Shown one piece after another: positions 5,205 to 53,832 of a stretch of DNA of 64,000 nt; position 1 is the first letter of the stretch, and each line of letters begins with the position of its first letter. This DNA is from Pseudobdellovibrionaceae bacterium. Lineage in GTDB: Bacteria > Bdellovibrionota > Bdellovibrionia > Bdellovibrionales > Bdellovibrionaceae. Below the pieces are notes generated by a model. The model was not told the DNA's origin. It saw nothing but the letters and a program-made list of their open reading frames with translations, and did not search any database. The stretch covers positions 3,132,565 through 3,196,564 of the forward strand of contig JAHBUV010000001.1 in assembly GCA_019637915.1 (NCBI GenBank), in the 5' to 3' direction. A program made the position numbers and the translations under genes.

Positions 5205-7388
5205 CTAGTCGCAGAGGGGAGCGGCGGGGTCTTTGCGGCAGAGGTAGGCTTTCAAACGCGCGTTTTCCGCTTCCAGGGCGGTGACCCGCTCGTCGGTCGC
5301 GCTCAATCGGGCGATCAGGGCTTTCAAGGACTCGATCACCGGCGCCACCAATTTGTCGTAAGCCACGGATTTGAAGCCCGTGCGTTGATCCGTGTGCACG
5401 ACTTCCGGGTACACCTGTTCCACGTCCTGGGCGATGAAGCCGACTTGGTGCTGATTCCCGAAACGCTCCGCTTCGATCCAGTCGTAGCTCACGCCCTGCA
5501 GCCGCTGGATTTTCTCCAGGGAGTTCCGCAAGGGCTCGATGTCCTTCTTGTAACGCTTGTCCGAGGGCGTGGGGCAGCCGGTGACGCTGCAGATGGCGGT
5601 CGTGCCGAAGTACAAGGTCGCCGAGTTTTCGATGCGCACGTCGCCGTTCACGTCGAGCTTGTAGGTGGTCGGGGTGACGCCGACGCCGAGGTTGCCGCCG
5701 GTCAAGTGCAGGCGGGTCGTGCCCGTGCCGTCCAGGAACGCGTGGGAACCGTTGGCGGACTGATAGGTGAGGGCGCCGTTCCAGCCGGCCTGGAAGAACG
5801 ACGTGGAACTCGATCCGCCGTTTTTACCGATGAGTTGCAAGGTCGCGGCCCCTCCGGCCGCCGCCTGAGTGGGGCCGACGGCCACCGTGGGGTTGCCGGC
5901 GGTGTCGCTCACGGTCAGCCGCGATCCGGGATTGGTCGTGCCGATCCCGACGTTGCCGGCGCCGTTCTTGTAGAGGATGCCCGCGCCCCAGGGGTTGCCG
6001 CGGTTGGAGGAACTCGGATAGTCCAGCTCCTCCACGAGCATCGAAACCAGATAAGCGGTCGCGGAGTTGTAAAGACGCAGGCTCGGGACCCCGGCGTTCA
6101 AAAAGAACTCCGGATGCTGAACGGTCGTCCCCGCTTCGTAGTCTTTGTAGAGCAGAAAGTTCGTGCCGTCGCTGGTCACCACGGCCTGCGCGCCGGTGGC
6201 GAGCGAGGTGCCGGCCACCCAGGCGGTCAGGCGGTACTGACGGTTCAGGGCGAGCGCCGTTCCCGAGCAGTCCACCAGGGACGCCGGCGCCGCCGTCGTC
6301 AGACCGGTGTAGTTGCGAATGCAGTTTTTTGAAACCACGCCGTTCATGGACAGCGTCAGGTCGCCCTCGACGTTGAGTTTGCCGGCCGGGGTGGCCGTGC
6401 CGATCCCGACGTTGCCGCCCGACAGCACCGTCACGCGCGGATTGTTGTTGGTGTTGATCGTCAGCGCCGTGTTGTTGCTCGTGCCCAAAGTCAGGGCGCC
6501 ATCCTGGCCGCCGGCCTTCACGGCGTCCGTGATGCCGTAACCGGCGAGGGTCGTGGGGCTCGTGCCCGCCGTCACGCGGCCCGTGGCGTCCACCGTGACC
6601 GAGGTGTAGGTGCCCGTGGTGACGGCGCTGGCCGGAACCGGGTCCAGGGTTTTCGTCGTGCCTCCGCTGCGGAATTTCAGCGTGCCCGTGCCGGAATCGA
6701 TCCACACCGTGCCGTTCGCCGGCGAGGACGGGTCGACCGTCACCTGCGTGCCTGAGTTGCCCGACGCTCTGGAGTACTGCGCCGAGCTGCCGTTGATGAG
6801 GTTCATCAACTCAGTGAAATTCGTTGAGGTCAGCGCGCCGACGGCCTGGGGCACGCCGGCGTCAGCGACGCGGCAGAGGTGATCGGCCTGAAAACCCCCG
6901 GCCAAGGTGTCGGCCTCCAGGGCGTAGGGGACCGAACGGATGATGTAGGGATCGGTGAAGTTCACGACGGTGCCGGCGTCGTCGAAGCTCAGGTACATTT
7001 TGCGGATCTTGTCGGGGCCGGTCACGAAGCTGCCGCCGCTCGCGCAGTGCAGACCCGTGCGCGTGCCGGTGTTGCTGAAGACCGAGGCCAGGCTCAGGCC
7101 CACGTCGTCCCCGCCGCGAACGCCGCCGCCGATCGCGATCGAGAAATTCCCGTCCGTGCCCGCGAAGTTCACGTTGTGGGTTTCCTCGAGCAAGGTGCAA
7201 TCTTCGGTGCTGTCGCTGGCGATGCGCACGGTGACCATGACGCCGTTGGAGTTGATGGGTTGGCCGTCCGGCTGCAGGAGCCGGCCCTGGTAAGTCAGCC
7301 GGTGGGGCACCGCCTGCGCGACGGAGGCCAGCAAAGACGAAAGTCCCAGCGAAATGAAAAATTTTGCGAACGGGCCGGTGTTTTTCAT
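5205..7388 (-). CDS. Tail-fibre-like surface protein with C-terminal S74 chaperone domain (MAT-type fibre)
   Basis: A 727-residue exported fibre. A Sec signal peptide (to about residue 27) is followed by an N-terminal domain opening with HRLTYQGRLLQPDG and ending near SVPYALEAD. A long Gly/Thr/Ser-rich, beta-repetitive shaft contains GNVGIGTxxPxxxL and TLAGYGITDAVK units typical of trimeric phage fibres. From about residue 608, SDKRYKKDI begins a peptidase S74 intramolecular chaperone, and a short coiled coil (VTALEAENARLKAYL) closes the protein. S74 domains trimerise and then self-cleave beta fibres. Bdellovibrio is known to use such chimeric fibres to contact prey. It lies 9 bases after the lipoprotein gene and its GGGGAG site abuts that gene's stop. 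Confidence 0.85.
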   Translation of the reverse strand: MKNTGPFAKFFISLGLSSLLASVAQAVPHRLTYQGRLLQPDGQPINSNGVMVTVRIASDSTEDCTLLEETHNVNFAGTDGNFSIAIGGGVRGGDDVGLSLASVFSNTGTRTGLHCASGGSFVTGPDKIRKMYLSFDDAGTVVNFTDPYIIRSVPYALEADTLAGGFQADHLCRVADAGVPQAVGALTSTNFTELMNLINGSSAQYSRASGNSGTQVTVDPSSPANGTVWIDSGTGTLKFRSGGTTKTLDPVPASAVTTGTYTSVTVDATGRVTAGTSPTTLAGYGITDAVKAGGQDGALTLGTSNNTALTINTNNNPRVTVLSGGNVGIGTATPAGKLNVEGDLTLSMNGVVSKNCIRNYTGLTTAAPASLVDCSGTALALNRQYRLTAWVAGTSLATGAQAVVTSDGTNFLLYKDYEAGTTVQHPEFFLNAGVPSLRLYNSATAYLVSMLVEELDYPSSSNRGNPWGAGILYKNGAGNVGIGTTNPGSRLTVSDTAGNPTVAVGPTQAAAGGAATLQLIGKNGGSSSTSFFQAGWNGALTYQSANGSHAFLDGTGTTRLHLTGGNLGVGVTPTTYKLDVNGDVRIENSATLYFGTTAICSVTGCPTPSDKRYKKDIEPLRNSLEKIQRLQGVSYDWIEAERFGNQHQVGFIAQDVEQVYPEVVHTDQRTGFKSVAYDKLVAPVIESLKALIARLSATDERVTALEAENARLKAYLCRKDPAAPLCD

Positions 7389-7397
7389 CTGCTCCCC

Positions 7398-7712
7398 TTA
7401 CCTTGAGATCGCGTTTCCTTCCGCGCCTCCGTGGAGTTTCCATCCGCCCGTGCCGGTCAGGACGACCTCGGACTGAGTGGACCCCACGGTGCCGGAAAGT
7501 CGATAATTCGTGTTGGAACGCTGTCCGAACTGAGCCGCGCTGGTCAGGCCGCTGATCGACCCGGTCGAAACGTCATCGCCCCCGCGAAGTCCCTTGTTCT
7601 TACGATCGCTCAAATGCACCTGGCCGTCGCAGGCGGGGAGCATCAGCGCCACCAGCGCCAGCAGGCCCCAACGGTGACGTCGTGAGCGGAGAATTTTAGA
7701 ACTCAAAGCCAT
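7398..7712 (-). CDS. Small lipoprotein of the fibre cassette
   Basis: A 104-residue lipoprotein. A basic N-terminus and hydrophobic stretch end in the lipobox LPAC with lipidated Cys28. The mature 76 residues are Gly/Ser/Thr-rich (GGDDVSTGSISG, LTGTGGWKLHGG) and lack recognised domains. Its ATG overlaps the 3' end of the upstream barrel-like gene by 17 bases, and its TAA (7398-7400) lies directly before the ribosome site of the S74 fibre, so the three are almost certainly one translationally coupled operon. An inferred role is anchoring or assembly of the fibre at the outer membrane. A GGDD(V/I)S motif also occurs near the N-terminus of the giant lipoprotein at 10503-17993. Confidence 0.75.
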   Translation of the reverse strand: MALSSKILRSRRHRWGLLALVALMLPACDGQVHLSDRKNKGLRGGDDVSTGSISGLTSAAQFGQRSNTNYRLSGTVGSTQSEVVLTGTGGWKLHGGAEGNAISR

Positions 7713-40027: not shown

Positions 40028-40120
40028 GGGGTCAAAGTTCCCTTTTTTGCACGACCCAACCAGAGGGGTCACAGTTCCTTTTTTGGATCGCACCATCGTG
40101 CAAAAAGGGAACTGTGACCC
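40028..40120. repeat. REP-like palindrome cluster (family A, core GTTCCCTTTTT)
   Basis: Arms GGGTCACAGTTCC... (40066-40084) and ...GGGAACTGTGACCC (40102-40120) form a near-perfect hairpin. A third arm in the first orientation, GGGTCAAAGTTCCC..., lies at 40028-40047 and continues TTGCACGA, complementary to TCGTGCAA before the right arm, so it can pair as an alternative. The cluster is between the RibD-like and DUF1428 genes. Confidence 0.85.
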
Positions 40121-40657: not shown

Positions 40658-40714
40658 GGGGCAACAGTTCCCTATTTGTATCGCTCAGCGGTCCAAATAG
40701 GGAACTGTTGCCCC
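40658..40714. repeat. REP-like palindrome (family A)
   Basis: A perfect 21-base inverted repeat: the left arm (40658-40678) reads GGGGCAACAGTTCCC then TATTTG, and the right arm (40694-40714) is its exact complement; the loop is 15 bases. It shares the CAGTTCCC core with the copies at 40028 and 49750. It lies between DUF1428 and the 1000-residue exported protein, 23 bases from the latter's stop. Confidence 0.9.
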
Positions 40715-46624: not shown

Positions 46625-49117
46625 CTATCGCGGCAGGCCTGCGGCTTCGCAGCTGGTGATCAATTCGGGATTCGCCAGGAAATCATCCGCCACTTGAGCC
46701 CGCGTCAACGTGCCTTTGTCGATCAGCGGGGCCCAATAGAGAACTCCCGCCGTGTCGCCGACGCGGCGATAAAGACCTTCATACAGGCGGCTCACGAATT
46801 TCGCGCCCGACAGCTTTCGGCCGATCTCGACGAACTCCGGGGCCTGCACGAAACTGATCGACAACTCCACGCAGGTCTGGCGGCCCTCGGCGTGGAATTT
46901 CACGCCCGCTTCGTCGGGGGCGCGCTGGTACAATTTCTGATAAAGACCGCGCACGAAGGCACGACGTTTTTCCAGATCGTCCTCGGTGCGCCCGTCACCG
47001 CGCACGGGCGTCGCCTTGGCGTGGGGATTCACCGCCGTGCGCCCGCGGGCGGCGCCGGGCGAGCAAATCAAATCCTGGGCCTGGCAAAAGCTTTGGAATT
47101 CCGGGGAGGCCAGGATCGTCTCTTCAATCTGCATGCGGCTGATGGCGCCGGTATTCAACTGCGAGATCCACACCGACAATCCCGCCAGGTCCGGTTCGCG
47201 CTCGAACAGGCCGCGATACACGCGTTGCAGGAAAACCTCGTTGCTGATCCGCGACGCTTGGGCGAAGTACTCGTCGCTCTCCAGAATCTGCACGGCCAAA
47301 CCGGCCGCACCGAACGTGCGCTGACGGTAGAGGTCCGTCAGATGATCCATTCCCGAAGCGTCCACTTCCCGCTGCAGGAGCGCGCGGTACATCCGCGCGA
47401 TGAAGGCCTGGGCCGCTTCGACGCTGCTCTCCGACGGCGGCGGCAAGGGCGCCGGCACGGGCGCGCGGGGCGGTTCAGGAGCGGGAGCGCCGTCCAGAAT
47501 CAATGCCGTCCCCTGGCGGAGCAGATCGTTGGCCGCCAAACCCAGAGTGCGGCCGCGAACGCGGGCGGCCCACTCGGAACGCTCATGCTCCGTCGGAGCC
47601 CGCGCGAAGAGTTTTTGGAAAACATCGCTCACGACCTTGCGGCGGGCCTCCTCGGACCCGGCGACGTTGCGGAAAAAGTTCGCCCGTCCTCCTTCCACAT
47701 AGATGCGGACGGGAAAGGCCGAAGCCTCCTCCCACGAGGGCTCGCGCCCCAAGAGCAGGCGATAGGACCAAATACCCACTTCGTAGTCGCTCACATTCAG
47801 CGCCAGGAAAGGCTGCATGCCCTGGTACAGCAGTCCCAAACTGCCTGAAGCCTTGCGCATCCAGAAGCCCATGGTCAGGCCGTCGTCTTCGGTGTTGAGG
47901 TGAGCGCCGTTGAAATCCACCAGGCAGCTGTTCCCGGTCTGGCATTCGTTGTCGTACATCTGCCAGGCGACGAACGCCGGGATGTTCAGCGTCTTCAGCC
48001 AGTACTGCACGCGCGACGCATAAGCGATGATGTCGGCGGGCGAGCTCTTGTTCTCCGGGATGCCGAACTCCGTGACCATGACGTTGTTGCGACCGAAGGC
48101 CGCGCTCGGTTGCGTGTGCTGGCGGATGTACTCGAGCGCCCCCGCGAGCACGTGGACATCGGACTGGTGAGTGGCGTCGTAAGCCGAGTACCCGTAGGCG
48201 TCGCAATCCAGGCGCGGCAGCACTTCCGTGGTGAGGGAGGTGGTCAGCAGCGTCTGGCCCGCGGCTTCCGCCGCCTGGCGCAAACCCGCCAGAAGATCCG
48301 GCCGGTAGGTGCGCACCACGGCGTTCACTTCGCAGACATGGTAAACGGCGACGTTGCGGGCGCCGGCCTCGATGCGCGCGCGGCGGACCGCGGCCTGTCG
48401 GGTTTTGAAGTACCTTTCGTAGTTGGCGTAAGCGACGGAGGTCGGCGGCACGACGTTCGGCTCTTTGACGGCGTAGCGGGCGTTGCCGAAATCCGCCAGG
48501 TGATTGTCGCCCTCGTGGTTCTGGATCAAAAACACGCGCCCCGTGCCGGCGTGATTCTGGATCAAGCGCCGGGTCAGCTGGTAGATCTCATGATCGATGT
48601 CGGCGATCTCGGCTTCGCTCAGAAAGCGGTTCTCGATGTTCGCCGCGGCGATGTGATCGTCGACCTCCAGGAAGAACGCCTTGAAGGGCATGTTGAAGGT
48701 CTCCACGAATTCCGGCTGCTCGATCAGATCGGCCAGCAGCATATCGGGATGCACGTTCGGATTGCGCGCGCGGAAATTGCCGCCGGAAGGCGAGTTCGGA
48801 TCGACCCAGATTTTCAAGGAATTGAAGCCCAGGAGGCGCGCATCCATCGCCCCGCGGATCATGATCTTCGCGTCGAACAAGCCATTGGGATCGTACTGGG
48901 CCGCCGTGTGCGCCGTGCCGATCAAAGGCGCCATGTAGGGCCAGGCGTAAATGGCCTCTTGAGGGCTGGCGAAGGGGGTGAGGTTCAGGTTCGCGGAGGT
49001 GAGGAGGCTGAGATCGTTCGAGCTCTGCGAGCTTTCATCGAGGCTTTGCAGGGGCGAACAGCCCAGGGCGAAGAGCAGGGAAAAAGCCGTGGCGAGCGCG
49101 AAGAAAAGTGATCTCAC
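46625..49117 (-). CDS. Glycosidase-like TIM-barrel lipoprotein with DUF4214 repeats
   Basis: An 830-residue lipoprotein (FALGC, Cys20; GTG start at 49117). Residues about 45-460 look like a TIM-barrel glycoside hydrolase of the GH5/GH-A type: LGFNSLKIWVD, a candidate acid Glu in FFLEVDDH, DAYGYSAYD, and NVMVTEFGIPENKSSP with a candidate nucleophile Glu. After a Pro-rich linker, the C-terminal part has three DUF4214-type modules (AFIARMYRALLQREVDASG, VFLQRVYRGLFEREPDLAG, FVRGLYQKLYQRAPDEAG). DUF4214 is often found in surface proteins. The stop codon touches a family B palindrome. The substrate is unknown. Confidence 0.75.
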   Translation of the reverse strand: MRSLFFALATAFSLLFALGCSPLQSLDESSQSSNDLSLLTSANLNLTPFASPQEAIYAWPYMAPLIGTAHTAAQYDPNGLFDAKIMIRGAMDARLLGFNSLKIWVDPNSPSGGNFRARNPNVHPDMLLADLIEQPEFVETFNMPFKAFFLEVDDHIAAANIENRFLSEAEIADIDHEIYQLTRRLIQNHAGTGRVFLIQNHEGDNHLADFGNARYAVKEPNVVPPTSVAYANYERYFKTRQAAVRRARIEAGARNVAVYHVCEVNAVVRTYRPDLLAGLRQAAEAAGQTLLTTSLTTEVLPRLDCDAYGYSAYDATHQSDVHVLAGALEYIRQHTQPSAAFGRNNVMVTEFGIPENKSSPADIIAYASRVQYWLKTLNIPAFVAWQMYDNECQTGNSCLVDFNGAHLNTEDDGLTMGFWMRKASGSLGLLYQGMQPFLALNVSDYEVGIWSYRLLLGREPSWEEASAFPVRIYVEGGRANFFRNVAGSEEARRKVVSDVFQKLFARAPTEHERSEWAARVRGRTLGLAANDLLRQGTALILDGAPAPEPPRAPVPAPLPPPSESSVEAAQAFIARMYRALLQREVDASGMDHLTDLYRQRTFGAAGLAVQILESDEYFAQASRISNEVFLQRVYRGLFEREPDLAGLSVWISQLNTGAISRMQIEETILASPEFQSFCQAQDLICSPGAARGRTAVNPHAKATPVRGDGRTEDDLEKRRAFVRGLYQKLYQRAPDEAGVKFHAEGRQTCVELSISFVQAPEFVEIGRKLSGAKFVSRLYEGLYRRVGDTAGVLYWAPLIDKGTLTRAQVADDFLANPELITSCEAAGLPR

Positions 49118-49278
49118 TGTGTTCAGCCCCACCGGGAATCCACCGTCACGGACCACATATTCCCTGCTCCCAGATTAGGTGAAAGCCGGGTCTTTTCCCA
49201 GCTTTCCGCGAGGGGATTCCCGGATTGAGACCCTCGAAAAAGAGGCGCGAAAAAAATGGCGCACAGTGATTCACCACC

Positions 49279-49749: not shown

Positions 49750-49802
49750 GGTAACAGTTCCCTTTTTGTCGCGCAAGGCGCAACAAAAAGGGAACTGTTA
49801 CC
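49750..49802. repeat. REP-like palindrome (family A) containing a stop codon
   Basis: A perfect 20-base inverted repeat: the left arm (49750-49769) begins GGTAACAGTTCCC and the right arm (49783-49802) is its complement. The TTA at 49798-49800 inside the right arm is the minus-strand TAA stop of the response-regulator gene. The arms are the same family as those at 40066 and 40658. Confidence 0.9.
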
Positions 49803-51156
49803 CGGCGGCGTTTTTCGCGAGGCGGACGGTCAGTTGGCCCAGGGTGTTCACGAAGCTCTGGTCGAAGTCGCGCTGATAGTCGAATTTCAGCACCTCGAAG
49901 GCGCGGTACGGGGGCATGCCCTTCGTCCCGGGCGGGGTCAGGACCAGATCGCAGAACATGTCCGCCACGGCCACCAGGCGGGCGAGCGGATGGATCTGGT
50001 CGCCGCGCAGGCGCTGCGGGTAACCGCCGCCGCTCATCATTTCATGATGTTGCCCCGCCACGGCGGCGATGTCCTCGGACATGCCCGGCACGGAATTCAG
50101 GATCAGGCGGCCGCGCGTCGTGTGGCTTTCCAGCAGGGCGCACTCGCTCTGGCTCAGCTCGAAACGCTTTTTCGTCAGCAGCTCCGGCGGCAGCTCCTTC
50201 TGGCCGATATCGTGGAAAAGGCCCGCCAGGTTCACCTTGAACAAAGTCGTGCGCGCCGTCCAGCCGTGCTTGTGGGCGATGAGGCTGGCGATCATGCTGA
50301 CGGCGATGGCGTGCTCCGACATGCTCTGGGCGCTCAGGATCGAATCAAGTAATTTCGTTGTGTCGTCGTTCTTCAGCAGCAGGTCCACCGTGCTCGTCAC
50401 CATGCTGGAGGCGTCCTTCAGCCGCTCGCGGTTGAAACCGCCGGAGCACAGGTTCTCCATCAGGGAGTCCGTCAGATGGCGGACGAAGTTCATCTTACGG
50501 TCGATCTCGATCAGGGGCTGGCCCTGCACGGCGGTGAAGAGCCGCATGTTGAAGCCGACGTAGCGCGCGAAGTCCTCTTTGCGCATGTAGAAATGCTCGA
50601 TGCCTTTCGCCTGGTACATCTCGATGCGGTCGGTGGGGACGGACTGCCCCTGGCTGGCCAGACGGATGTACTTCTCGTCCGACAGGCGCAGGTAAATGTC
50701 CGTGGGCAGGGTGCTGCCCGAGATGAAATCCGAAATCTCCACCTGGCAGTAATCCGGGTCCATGCGGGGCATGACGGTGCCCGGGCTGCGGGTTTTTTCC
50801 TCGATCTGGGCGAGCGCGCGCAGCAGCTCCTCCTTGCGGAAGGGCTTGGACAGAAAGCCGTCCACGCCCAGCTCGTGGGCCTGGCGCACCTCCGCGAGTT
50901 CCGGGAACCCCGTCATCAGCAGGAACTGCGAGTTGGTTTTTTCTTTGACGAATTCCAGCAGCTTCAGGCCGTTCATCACCGGCATCTGCAGATCGGAAAT
51001 GATCAGATCAAAGGACGTGAGCTCCAGAATGGTTTTCGCGACCAGTCCGTTTTCGGCCAGCCGCACTTCGTGGTTTTGCGCTTCCAGATGGGTTTTGAGC
51101 ACCTGGCGGAAGACCTCGTCGTCCTCCACGATCAGAGTTTTTTTCCTCGCCTGCAC
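49798..51156 (-). CDS. Response regulator with HD-GYP-like output domain
   Basis: A 452-residue cytoplasmic protein. The receiver domain (1-120) has LIVEDDE, phospho-acceptor Asp55 in ISDLQMP, and LSKPF. A middle segment (about 130-265) is PilZ-like in length but unassigned. The HD domain has LFHDIGQKELPPELL (His315, Asp316) and QHHEMMSGGGYPQRL (370-382), close to the HD-GYP consensus HHExxDGxGYP but with Ser for the Asp. HD-GYP proteins hydrolyse cyclic di-GMP. It starts at GTG 51156; the fibre gene's TAA is part of its TAAGGAGG ribosome site, so it is translationally coupled to the fibre. It ends inside a family A palindrome. Confidence 0.85.
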   Translation of the reverse strand: MQARKKTLIVEDDEVFRQVLKTHLEAQNHEVRLAENGLVAKTILELTSFDLIISDLQMPVMNGLKLLEFVKEKTNSQFLLMTGFPELAEVRQAHELGVDGFLSKPFRKEELLRALAQIEEKTRSPGTVMPRMDPDYCQVEISDFISGSTLPTDIYLRLSDEKYIRLASQGQSVPTDRIEMYQAKGIEHFYMRKEDFARYVGFNMRLFTAVQGQPLIEIDRKMNFVRHLTDSLMENLCSGGFNRERLKDASSMVTSTVDLLLKNDDTTKLLDSILSAQSMSEHAIAVSMIASLIAHKHGWTARTTLFKVNLAGLFHDIGQKELPPELLTKKRFELSQSECALLESHTTRGRLILNSVPGMSEDIAAVAGQHHEMMSGGGYPQRLRGDQIHPLARLVAVADMFCDLVLTPPGTKGMPPYRAFEVLKFDYQRDFDQSFVNTLGQLTVRLAKNAAG

Positions 51157-51161
51157 GCCGT

Positions 51162-51169
51162 CCTCCTTA
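51162..51169 (-). promoter_or_regulatory. Overlapping stop codon and Shine-Dalgarno (TAAGGAGG)
   Basis: The fibre gene's TAA (51167-51169) is the first part of a perfect TAAGGAGG ribosome-binding site for the response-regulator GTG at 51156. Ribosomes finishing the fibre would therefore be placed to start the regulator. This fixes the GTG start and argues for one operon. Confidence 0.85.
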
Positions 51170-53449
51170 CCACCAGACAATGACCCGGCCCGCGGCCCCG
51201 ACGCCGCCGCTGCTCGAAGGTCCCAGGGCCGTGCTGCCGCCGCCCCCGCCGCCTCCGCCCCAGACCTGCACGAAGACGCGCTTCACGGTGGGCGGGACGA
51301 TGAAGGTGTTGTTGCCGTCGTAGACTTCCATGTTGCCGAAGGGGATCGGCACGCCGGTCAGCTGGCTGCCGTCCACGGCGGGCAGGCGTCCCGAGGAGTC
51401 GAGTTGCACGATCTTGTTCGCGCCCGTGCCGACATCGACGTTCAAGGTGCCGCTCACGGTGATGGTGCCCGCCACCAGGCCCGTGCCCGCCGCGACGGAG
51501 GTGACCGTGCCGCCGGAGTTGTTGTCGGCGGCCGGCTCCCAACGGCTGTCGGCGGTGCTGTATTTCAGAACCTGGTTGTTGCCCGGCGCCGCGCCGGAGA
51601 CGCTGACACCCTGGATTTTCCCGACCGTGGGGGCGCCCGCCGTGCCCGACAGATCGCCGCCGGCGCTGGCGTTCGCCTGCAAGGCGCCCGTGAGGCGGCT
51701 GTCATCGCCCGCCGCGAGCGTTCCCGCCGTGGTGCCGACGCTCAAGCTTGCGGCGCCCCCGAGGCCGGAGATTTGCGTGGAACTGATCGCGATGTTCGCG
51801 CAGATGAAGGTGTCCGTCAGCGATTGGTAGGACCAGACCTGGGCGGAGGTGCAACCGGTCGGGACCTGCGCCGCCGAGGCCACGCCGCGCAGCTGGCTCA
51901 TGTTCGGGTGGGCGCTGACCCAGGCGCTGCCGTTCCAGATCAGGGCGTGCCCGGAGGACGCGCCGTTTTGCAAAGCGACGGTCGGCGTGCTCGCGCCCTG
52001 GCTCACCGTCAGGGGGGCCGAGGCCGAGACCTGCGTCACCGTGCCGCCGCTGCCCGCCGACGAGGTGATCAGCTCCCAGGAGGAACCCGTGTCGCGGAAA
52101 ATTTTCTTCGTGTCCGTGGTGATGTAAAGTCTTCCGACCGTGTCCGCGAGGGGCATGGCGGCTTCCGTGCCCGACACGAAACTCGGGATGCCGGAGCTTT
52201 TCACGGCGTCGGTGATGCCGTAACCCGACAGGGTGGTGGGCATGCCCGTGAGGCTCGCCCAGGCGACATGGCTCCAGGACAGCGCGCCGTTGCCGTCGGT
52301 TTTCATGAACTGGTTCGCGAGCCCCTTGTCGACGGGCAGGATCAGATTGTAGGTGGAGGACTGCGCGGCCGAGGCCGAGATGTTCACGCCGATCGTCGAA
52401 TTCGGCGGCGTCGCCTGGAGGACGGCGAGAGAGCGCGTGCTCGCGGAGTTGGCGGCGAGGCTGCCCGTGGTGCTGATGGAGGTGCTGCCGCCGATGGTGC
52501 CCGAGGTGATGGCGGCGCCCGAAACCTTTCCCGCCGTCGTGATGGTGGAGAAATCGCCGTCGCTCAGCGCGGCGCCGCCGGTGACGCGGCCATAGGCATC
52601 GTAAGTGACCTTGGCGGCCGTGCCGCCGGAACCGATGGTGGCGAGCGAGATCGTGCCCGATCCCGTGATGGTGCCGCCGCTCAGGCCCGTGCCGGCGGTG
52701 ACGGAGGACACGGTGCCCGTGTTGAGGCTGCTCGCGATCCATTTGTTTTGCGATGAATTCCAGGTGAGGACCTGGCCGTTCGAGAGGCTCGTGATGTCCA
52801 CGCTGCGTCCGGCGAGGGAGCTGTTCACGTAGGTCGGGGTGGCGTACTGCGGGGACGTGCCGGCGGCCAGGGCGATCAGCGTCGTGGCGGACGCGGTCAG
52901 GTCATCGATCTTGGCCTGCGTGGCGGTGGCGTTCGTCTGCAGGAACTCGCTGGCCGAGCGGCCGCCCAGGTACTGGGAGTAATAGGCGTAAGGAACATGG
53001 AAGATGTTCTGATCCATCGGCAGGCTGATGATCTGTCCGCCCACCTCGTAGCTGAGGCGCAGGCGGCGTCCGTCGCCTGGGGACGGATTGTAGGAACAAC
53101 CGCCCGAGCCGGTCAGCAGGGCGGCGTTGCTGAAAGATTGCAAGAGGGTGAGCGAGGCGACGTTGCTGTTCGTGCCTTGCCCGACTTCAAGGGCGAAGAC
53201 GCCGGAGGTGCCCGTCATGTCGCGGTTGTGGGTCTCGTCATAGAGCAGGCACAGGCCGTCGGGTGAACGCACCTGCAGGCGGAAGATCACCGAAGAGCTC
53301 TCCTCGGAGTTGACGCCGTCGGCCTGCAGGAGACGCCCTTGGAAAGTGAAAACCGCGGACAGCGGCGTCGCTCCGGCGGGACCCGCCGCCAGGATCAGGA
53401 CCAGGAACAGAAGCGAGCGAATGAGGAAAGAAGGCGCGGCTTTTTTCAT
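51167..53449 (-). CDS. Tail-fibre-like surface protein with glycine-rich C-terminus
   Basis: A 760-residue exported fibre (signal peptide to about residue 28, AGA). The N-terminal domain, FTFQGRLLQADG to FHVPYAYYSQYLGG, parallels that of the fibre at 5205-7388. A long Gly/Ser/Thr-rich shaft has TLSGYGITDAVK, GTGLSGGTITGSGTISL and similar units of trimeric fibres. The C-terminus is YDGNNTFIVPPTVKRVFVQV followed by a poly-Gly run, ending GAAGRVIVWW, a glycine-rich tip module seen in phage adhesins. There is no S74 chaperone. It is translationally coupled to the HD-GYP-like regulator downstream and overlaps a small upstream ORF by four bases. Confidence 0.83.
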   Translation of the reverse strand: MKKAAPSFLIRSLLFLVLILAAGPAGATPLSAVFTFQGRLLQADGVNSEESSSVIFRLQVRSPDGLCLLYDETHNRDMTGTSGVFALEVGQGTNSNVASLTLLQSFSNAALLTGSGGCSYNPSPGDGRRLRLSYEVGGQIISLPMDQNIFHVPYAYYSQYLGGRSASEFLQTNATATQAKIDDLTASATTLIALAAGTSPQYATPTYVNSSLAGRSVDITSLSNGQVLTWNSSQNKWIASSLNTGTVSSVTAGTGLSGGTITGSGTISLATIGSGGTAAKVTYDAYGRVTGGAALSDGDFSTITTAGKVSGAAITSGTIGGSTSISTTGSLAANSASTRSLAVLQATPPNSTIGVNISASAAQSSTYNLILPVDKGLANQFMKTDGNGALSWSHVAWASLTGMPTTLSGYGITDAVKSSGIPSFVSGTEAAMPLADTVGRLYITTDTKKIFRDTGSSWELITSSAGSGGTVTQVSASAPLTVSQGASTPTVALQNGASSGHALIWNGSAWVSAHPNMSQLRGVASAAQVPTGCTSAQVWSYQSLTDTFICANIAISSTQISGLGGAASLSVGTTAGTLAAGDDSRLTGALQANASAGGDLSGTAGAPTVGKIQGVSVSGAAPGNNQVLKYSTADSRWEPAADNNSGGTVTSVAAGTGLVAGTITVSGTLNVDVGTGANKIVQLDSSGRLPAVDGSQLTGVPIPFGNMEVYDGNNTFIVPPTVKRVFVQVWGGGGGGGGSTALGPSSSGGVGAAGRVIVWW

Positions 53450-53655
53450 GGGAACTCCGTCATCAAAGTGGGTAAGTGGGAGGTGCTGACCCTTGACACT
53501 CCGTTGCTGTCTTTCAAGGAAATCGGACCCTCCGTGATTCCGGAGGTCGCCAGGATTTTGCGGCCCGAGGAGTGGGTGTGCAGCGACGCCCCGGACACGA
53601 TGCTGAAGAGCATCTTGTTCGGCGGCGGCGGGAAGAACTCCACGCTCACCGTCAT
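53446..53655 (-). CDS. Small ORF coupled to the second fibre gene
   Basis: A 69-residue frame (MTVSVEFFPPPPNKMLFSIV...) whose TGA overlaps the fibre ATG by four bases (ATGA). Third positions are GC-rich like real genes here, but the opposite strand shares the same wobble positions, so this is weak proof. It has no signal peptide and no Shine-Dalgarno; the frame is open without another start to about 53735. It may be the small partner of the fibre, in the position of the lipoprotein in the first cassette, or the end of a decayed gene. Confidence 0.35.
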   Translation of the reverse strand: MTVSVEFFPPPPNKMLFSIVSGASLHTHSSGRKILATSGITEGPISLKDSNGVSRVSTSHLPTLMTEFP

Positions 53656-53832
53656 CGTGAAGGGCGCATGGCGTCCTTTTAATTCATATTTGTTTTCTTG
53701 TCCGATCTTAAAGGAAGAAAGACGGCGAGGCGATCAGGAAAGGAGGGGGTTTTCGACGAAGGGCCTGCCGGGCTTTGATCCTTCACAATCTTCGGACAAA
53801 GACCGGCGGTTGATTTTGAGCGAACTCGAGGG
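53450..53832. other. Region between carbonic anhydrase and second fibre genes
   Basis: These 383 bases hold the small ORF described at 53446-53655 and, further upstream, an AT-rich segment (about 53675-53705, with TATGAATT on the minus strand) that is the likely promoter of the fibre-regulator operon. A plus-strand frame also crosses it but has no start or ribosome site outside the fibre gene. Nothing else is seen. Confidence 0.5.

Follow-up and report, generated by a model that had tools for sequence, protein, structure and literature searches.

Mosaic adhesive trimers (MATs) are prey-recognition fibers of Bdellovibrio (PMC10769870; Caulton et al., 2024). A text search of the MAT paper (PMC10769870) turned up neither operons nor HD-GYP proteins, and the sources that we found do not describe how MAT fibers are regulated. 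Predation in Bdellovibrio is under cyclic di-GMP control (PMC3271064). In the HD-GYP protein PmGH, alanine at Lys225 or at Asp183 abolishes activity (PMC4159591), and Bd1817 (PDB 3TM8), an unconventional HD-GYP protein, has been described as inactive. The wider question is by what means predatory bacteria detect contact with prey and relay the signal inward.

Here we describe a locus in a 64,000-nucleotide stretch of DNA (the window) from a Pseudobdellovibrionaceae bacterium, whose genome comprises 3.3 Mb in 14 contigs. The window fiber resembles the MAT fibers of Bdellovibrio bacteriovorus in having a signal peptide, the N-terminal domain NF053851, a long repetitive shaft, and a C-terminal end corresponding to the exchangeable tip, but differs in that its tip is a shortened glycine-rich domain and its gene runs into that of a response regulator. 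At a probability of roughly 0.5, we read the locus as a lineage-specific operon, in which the gene for a rare-lineage MAT immediately precedes that for an orphan receiver-HD-GYP regulator as a result of local rearrangement and not as a conserved module. The features of the locus are as follows.

49750..49802, no strand assigned: 53-bp palindrome, one of about 20 dispersed copies, holding the regulator stop codon (sequence)
49798..51156, minus strand: response regulator, 452 residues from GTG, with receiver, Bd1817-like middle domain, and HD-GYP domain (PF00072, PF13487, Bd1817 match)
49858..50328, minus strand: HD-GYP domain, retaining the metal-ligand positions but with other residues in place of PmGH Lys225 and Asp183 (PF13487)
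50800..51141, minus strand: receiver domain with phospho-acceptor Asp55, counting GTG as residue 1 (PF00072)
51157..51166, minus strand: 10-nt intergenic stretch with a GGAGG ribosome-binding site abutting the fiber TAA (sequence)
51167..53449, minus strand: fiber gene encoding a MAT of 760 residues, with a signal peptide followed by the conserved N-terminal domain (NF053851)
51170..51337, minus strand: shortened glycine-rich tip, residues 705-760 (alignment with six relatives, pairwise comparison)
52931..53380, minus strand: MAT N-terminal domain, residues 24-173 (NCBIfam NF053851, Bdello_MAT_N)
53446..53733, minus strand: remnant of a companion Big_1-type lipoprotein, C-terminal part only, with homology at 53455-53691 (tblastn)

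The fiber gene and its junction with the regulator gene

By its sequence, the fiber is a MAT, because it matches Bdello_MAT_N at 117.2 bits, above the curated cut-off of 60, over residues 24-173; it thus has the conserved N-terminal domain of ~130 residues after the signal peptide by which MATs are recognized. Membership of this family predicts a trimeric, surface-displayed fiber. The source genome encodes five MATs, one of which is the first fiber of the window (5205-7388). A Pfam search of the fiber returned no matches, and no relative was found by sequence in the PDB. A phage origin was considered and rejected, as matches to PHROGs were weak and involved the shaft repeats only.

Both genes lie on the minus strand, where the sequence-only reading had located them. 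The fiber gene extends from an ATG at 53449 to a TAA at 51169-51167, and the regulator gene from a GTG at 51156-51154 to a stop codon at 49800-49798. That reading also placed the fiber stop within the ribosome site of the regulator, with 10 bases between the genes, and the junction bears this out: the TAA lies directly against GGAGG (TTGTCTGGTGGTAAGGAGGACGGCGTGCAG), the written-out junction has 10 nt between the genes (TGGTGGTAAGGAGGACGGCGTG), and the GGAGG-to-GTG spacing is 5 nt. The word "fused" was too strong, as the fiber and regulator are two separate open reading frames. A TTG at 51180, upstream of the GTG and overlapping the fiber gene, is a less likely regulator start. A promoter scan found no promoter-like site at the junction and two weak promoter-like matches inside the fiber gene, the latter counting against the operon reading. 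The two genes are probably co-transcribed and probably translationally coupled. A short gap after a MAT gene is not rare, since several next genes in a survey of 40 MATs run in the same direction within ~20 nt.

In the lineage-specific operon that we favor, one transcript would start ahead of the fiber gene and end at the palindrome, and ribosomes terminating on the fiber would start on the regulator at the site shared between the two genes (TAAGGAGG), so that the fiber promoter would determine how much regulator is made. Asp55 would be phosphorylated by a kinase from another locus, and the HD-GYP domain, competent at its metal site but without two residues that PmGH requires for hydrolysis, would be more likely to bind a partner protein or a cyclic dinucleotide than to act as a strong phosphodiesterase. 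Local rearrangement would be the most likely origin of the pairing, rather than selection for a conserved fiber-control module.

The palindrome consists of GGTAACAGTTCCCTTTTTGT, 13 nt, and then the reverse complement, and occurs in about 20 copies in the genome compared to none for a reversed control pattern. The 81-nt stretch that holds it folds with a z-score of -9.2, and the palindrome could serve as the operon terminator. Further copies occur in the window at about 40067-40119 and 40660-40712. The genome also contains two matches to Y1 transposase (PF01797), a possible mobilizer of the palindrome.

Neighbors of the regulator and of the fiber in related genomes

Conservation of the pair in other genomes, which the sequence-only reading had proposed as a check, was not observed. 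With homologues accepted at E values up to 1e-75, the regulator is represented in 34 of 141 genomes from the order, and the one other genome of its genus lacks it. None of 55 distinct homologue loci with flanks has a codirectional MAT directly upstream; within this sample the codirectional pair is found only in the source genome, the outcome that the sequence-only reading had itself named as refuting, and a conserved fiber-regulator operon is rejected. A MAT occurs elsewhere in the flanks of two of the 55 homologues, once as a divergent gene 363 nt away (L078) and once ~4 kb away in a two-component cluster (L308). We also reject enrichment of MAT/HD-GYP adjacency from the regulator side, because MAT density (297 MATs in 60 genomes, ~187 Mb in all) predicts ~1.3 such homologues in 816 kb of flank compared to the two observed. 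The commonest partner of the 55 homologues is instead a histidine kinase, which is codirectional and immediately upstream in 12 cases and differs in its sensor part from one to another. In 39, a two-component gene lies no more than three genes away. Bdellovibrionales regulators such as those at L064, L072, and L169 share the three-part architecture of the window protein at 30-41% identity, but the gene in each of these three begins within the last 4 nt of a histidine-kinase gene, whereas the window copy follows a fiber gene. No kinase gene was recognized beside the window regulator, which therefore looks like an orphan.

Seen from the fiber, the neighborhood looks different. The C-terminal part of the window fiber matches a small lineage of glycine-rich-tip MATs, found in 7 of 140 genomes from the order, one of them the source genome. 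In four of six glycine-rich-tip relatives, spread over three families, a two-component gene lies convergent just after the MAT, compared to 1 of 40 other MATs (Fisher p = 4e-4), in a post hoc comparison with a small sample, a count inflated by shared ancestry, and comparison MATs drawn almost wholly from three genomes. Genomes G061, G005, and G124 have an OmpR-type regulator in this position, with a CHASE3 hybrid kinase alongside it in G061 and G124, and G090 has a hybrid kinase; no two-component gene follows the MAT in G089 and G098. One contig of G090 (C688, locus L308) carries a MAT, an OmpR-like regulator, a hybrid kinase, an OmpR-type regulator, and a receiver-HD-GYP homologue within ~8 kb.

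These observations count against the lineage-specific operon, as the four-of-six adjacency may mean that the neighborhood is non-random and the G090 cluster unites a MAT, a kinase, regulators, and an HD-GYP homologue. They speak for a tentative alternative, an ancestral module in which a hybrid kinase and its regulators act together with glycine-rich-tip MATs, an OmpA-like protein, and a Big_1 lipoprotein; the source-genome cluster would then be a reduced one, with the HD-GYP regulator left over or replacing the OmpR-type protein. We regard this alternative as possible but doubtful. The two-component neighbors of the relatives are convergent with the MAT, lie outside a single operon, and are OmpR-type regulators or hybrid kinases, and their adjacency concerns an HD-GYP protein directly only in G090. 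Moreover, the OmpR-type regulator was rejected as a marker of these MATs: it has homologues in 123 of 140 genomes, and several relatives carry the regulator-kinase pair with no accompanying MAT. A looser link between fibers and phosphorelays is possible. At considerably longer odds, glycine-rich-tip MATs, the OmpA-family protein, and the Big_1 lipoprotein might make up a device at the cell surface that signals through a phosphorelay of its own, composed of a hybrid kinase, an OmpR-type regulator, and a receiver-HD-GYP protein; the predator would then sense prey contact through the fiber, and the window would hold a reduced version with the HD-GYP output placed in the fiber operon. The fiber-regulator pair alone is weak evidence on such matters; its main value is as a pointer to the glycine-rich-tip lineage, and the pattern that it brings out, in which a small group of MATs has a lipoprotein of its own and tends to adjoin two-component genes, is testable.

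The shortened tip and the companion lipoprotein

The six glycine-rich-tip relatives (L219, L221, L222, L224, L240, and L241) share with the window fiber the junction that precedes the tip, the C-terminal end, and a lipoprotein gene upstream, of which the window retains a remnant; they differ in that the tip is complete and the lipoprotein, if covered by the contig, is fuller. The L219 protein contains a Gly_rich_2 domain (PF21722). Compared to all six, the window fiber is kept up to VWGGGGG and again at the end, GRVIVWW, and the ~130-150 residues between are missing, so that ~35 residues of glycine-rich tip remain. The deletion is in frame and leaves the open reading frame intact. The missing residues may also reflect assembly collapse of a GC-rich, glycine-rich repeat.

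In relatives with enough upstream sequence on the contig, the MAT gene is immediately preceded by one for a lipoprotein of ~190-210 residues, at spacings from a 22-nt overlap to a 25-nt gap; where scanned, the lipoprotein matched Big_1 weakly (28.7 and 31.0 bits, below the Pfam cut-off of 34.9). The window remnant is 45% identical to the L222 lipoprotein (tblastn, E = 2e-13), its stop codon overlaps the fiber ATG, and it lacks the N-terminal part that carries the signal peptide and Ig-like domain. In three genomes (L242, L243, and L221), the gene order is OmpA-family protein, Big_1 lipoprotein, and glycine-rich-tip MAT.

Loss of the adhesive tip and of part of the lipoprotein, taken with the lack of conservation of the pair, would suit a neutral juxtaposition in a decaying locus, where the regulator is simply the next gene and has no functional tie to the fiber. 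We consider this explanation unlikely. The junction has a well-formed ribosome-binding site, both open reading frames are intact, and the in-frame deletion spares the extreme C-terminus; because the frames are intact and the deletion is in frame, the fiber may still be functional. The pair is real, but it is a single-genome arrangement of a shortened fiber and a probably non-catalytic regulator.

A different small lipoprotein, of ~100 residues and often ending in a sequence like YKVYxSVQGxIxS, adjoins MAT genes in about a dozen genomes (the window at 7398-7712, minus strand, and L185, L188, L192, L194, L197, L199, L044, L052, L042, L226, and L268) and was not seen in any of the many non-MAT loci scanned. 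It is a candidate for a protein that partners or anchors the conserved N-terminal domain of MATs.

Regulator domains and predicted activity

The receiver (PF00072, 82.5 bits) has the residues expected of a response regulator, namely an acidic pair, the phospho-acceptor Asp, and the conserved Thr and Lys. The HD-GYP domain (PF13487, 101.7 bits) contains the HD and HHE...GGYP signatures. Asp55, HD, and HHE are thus present as the sequence-only reading had stated; its term "HD-GYP-like" was an understatement, since the GYP signature is there as well. Seven metal-ligand positions common to HD-GYP proteins are occupied by H281, H314, D315, H344, H369, H370, and D398. The counterparts of the two essential PmGH residues are absent. 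The position of Lys225 is Gln318 in the regulator (P0001 numbering), whereas most related Bdellovibrionales receiver/HD-GYP regulators retain the usual Lys, and that of Asp183 is Ala275 (P0001 numbering) by offset from the metal-ligand histidine; the neighboring Asp183 column by alignment contains Gln276, where most relatives have Asp. Because Lys225 and Asp183 lack counterparts, the suggestion that the protein may be active is doubtful: we would expect weak hydrolysis of a cyclic dinucleotide or none, and the domain is probably non-catalytic.

The middle and HD-GYP domains align with Bd1817 over most of their length, although Bd1817 has neither a receiver nor the GYP tyrosine, whereas the window regulator has both a receiver and an intact GYP motif. 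Structure-alignment rows (VIA-align) were dominated by the receiver, with only the Bd1817 and DvhD rows covering the rest. The rmsd to Bd1817 was large, probably through differing domain placement; the regulator model had a mean pLDDT of 79.8 and a pTM of 0.46, and its domain arrangement is not trusted.

What stands of the sequence-only reading is the close codirectional genes, the real fiber family, and the real receiver-HD-GYP protein; conservation failed, and activity is doubtful. Its proposal that an active cyclic-di-GMP phosphodiesterase is made together with the fiber, linking fiber synthesis to a signaling state, draws on the intact receiver, metal-ligand positions, and GYP motif and on the control of predation by cyclic di-GMP, but is improbable given the replaced essential residues, the inactivity described for the structurally similar Bd1817, and the unconserved pair.

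Two other genes were observed near MAT genes. At L232, a PilZ-domain gene lies convergent just after a MAT, and in the window an 843-residue protein with four DUF4214 matches is encoded at 46625-49156 (minus strand), near the fiber-regulator pair.
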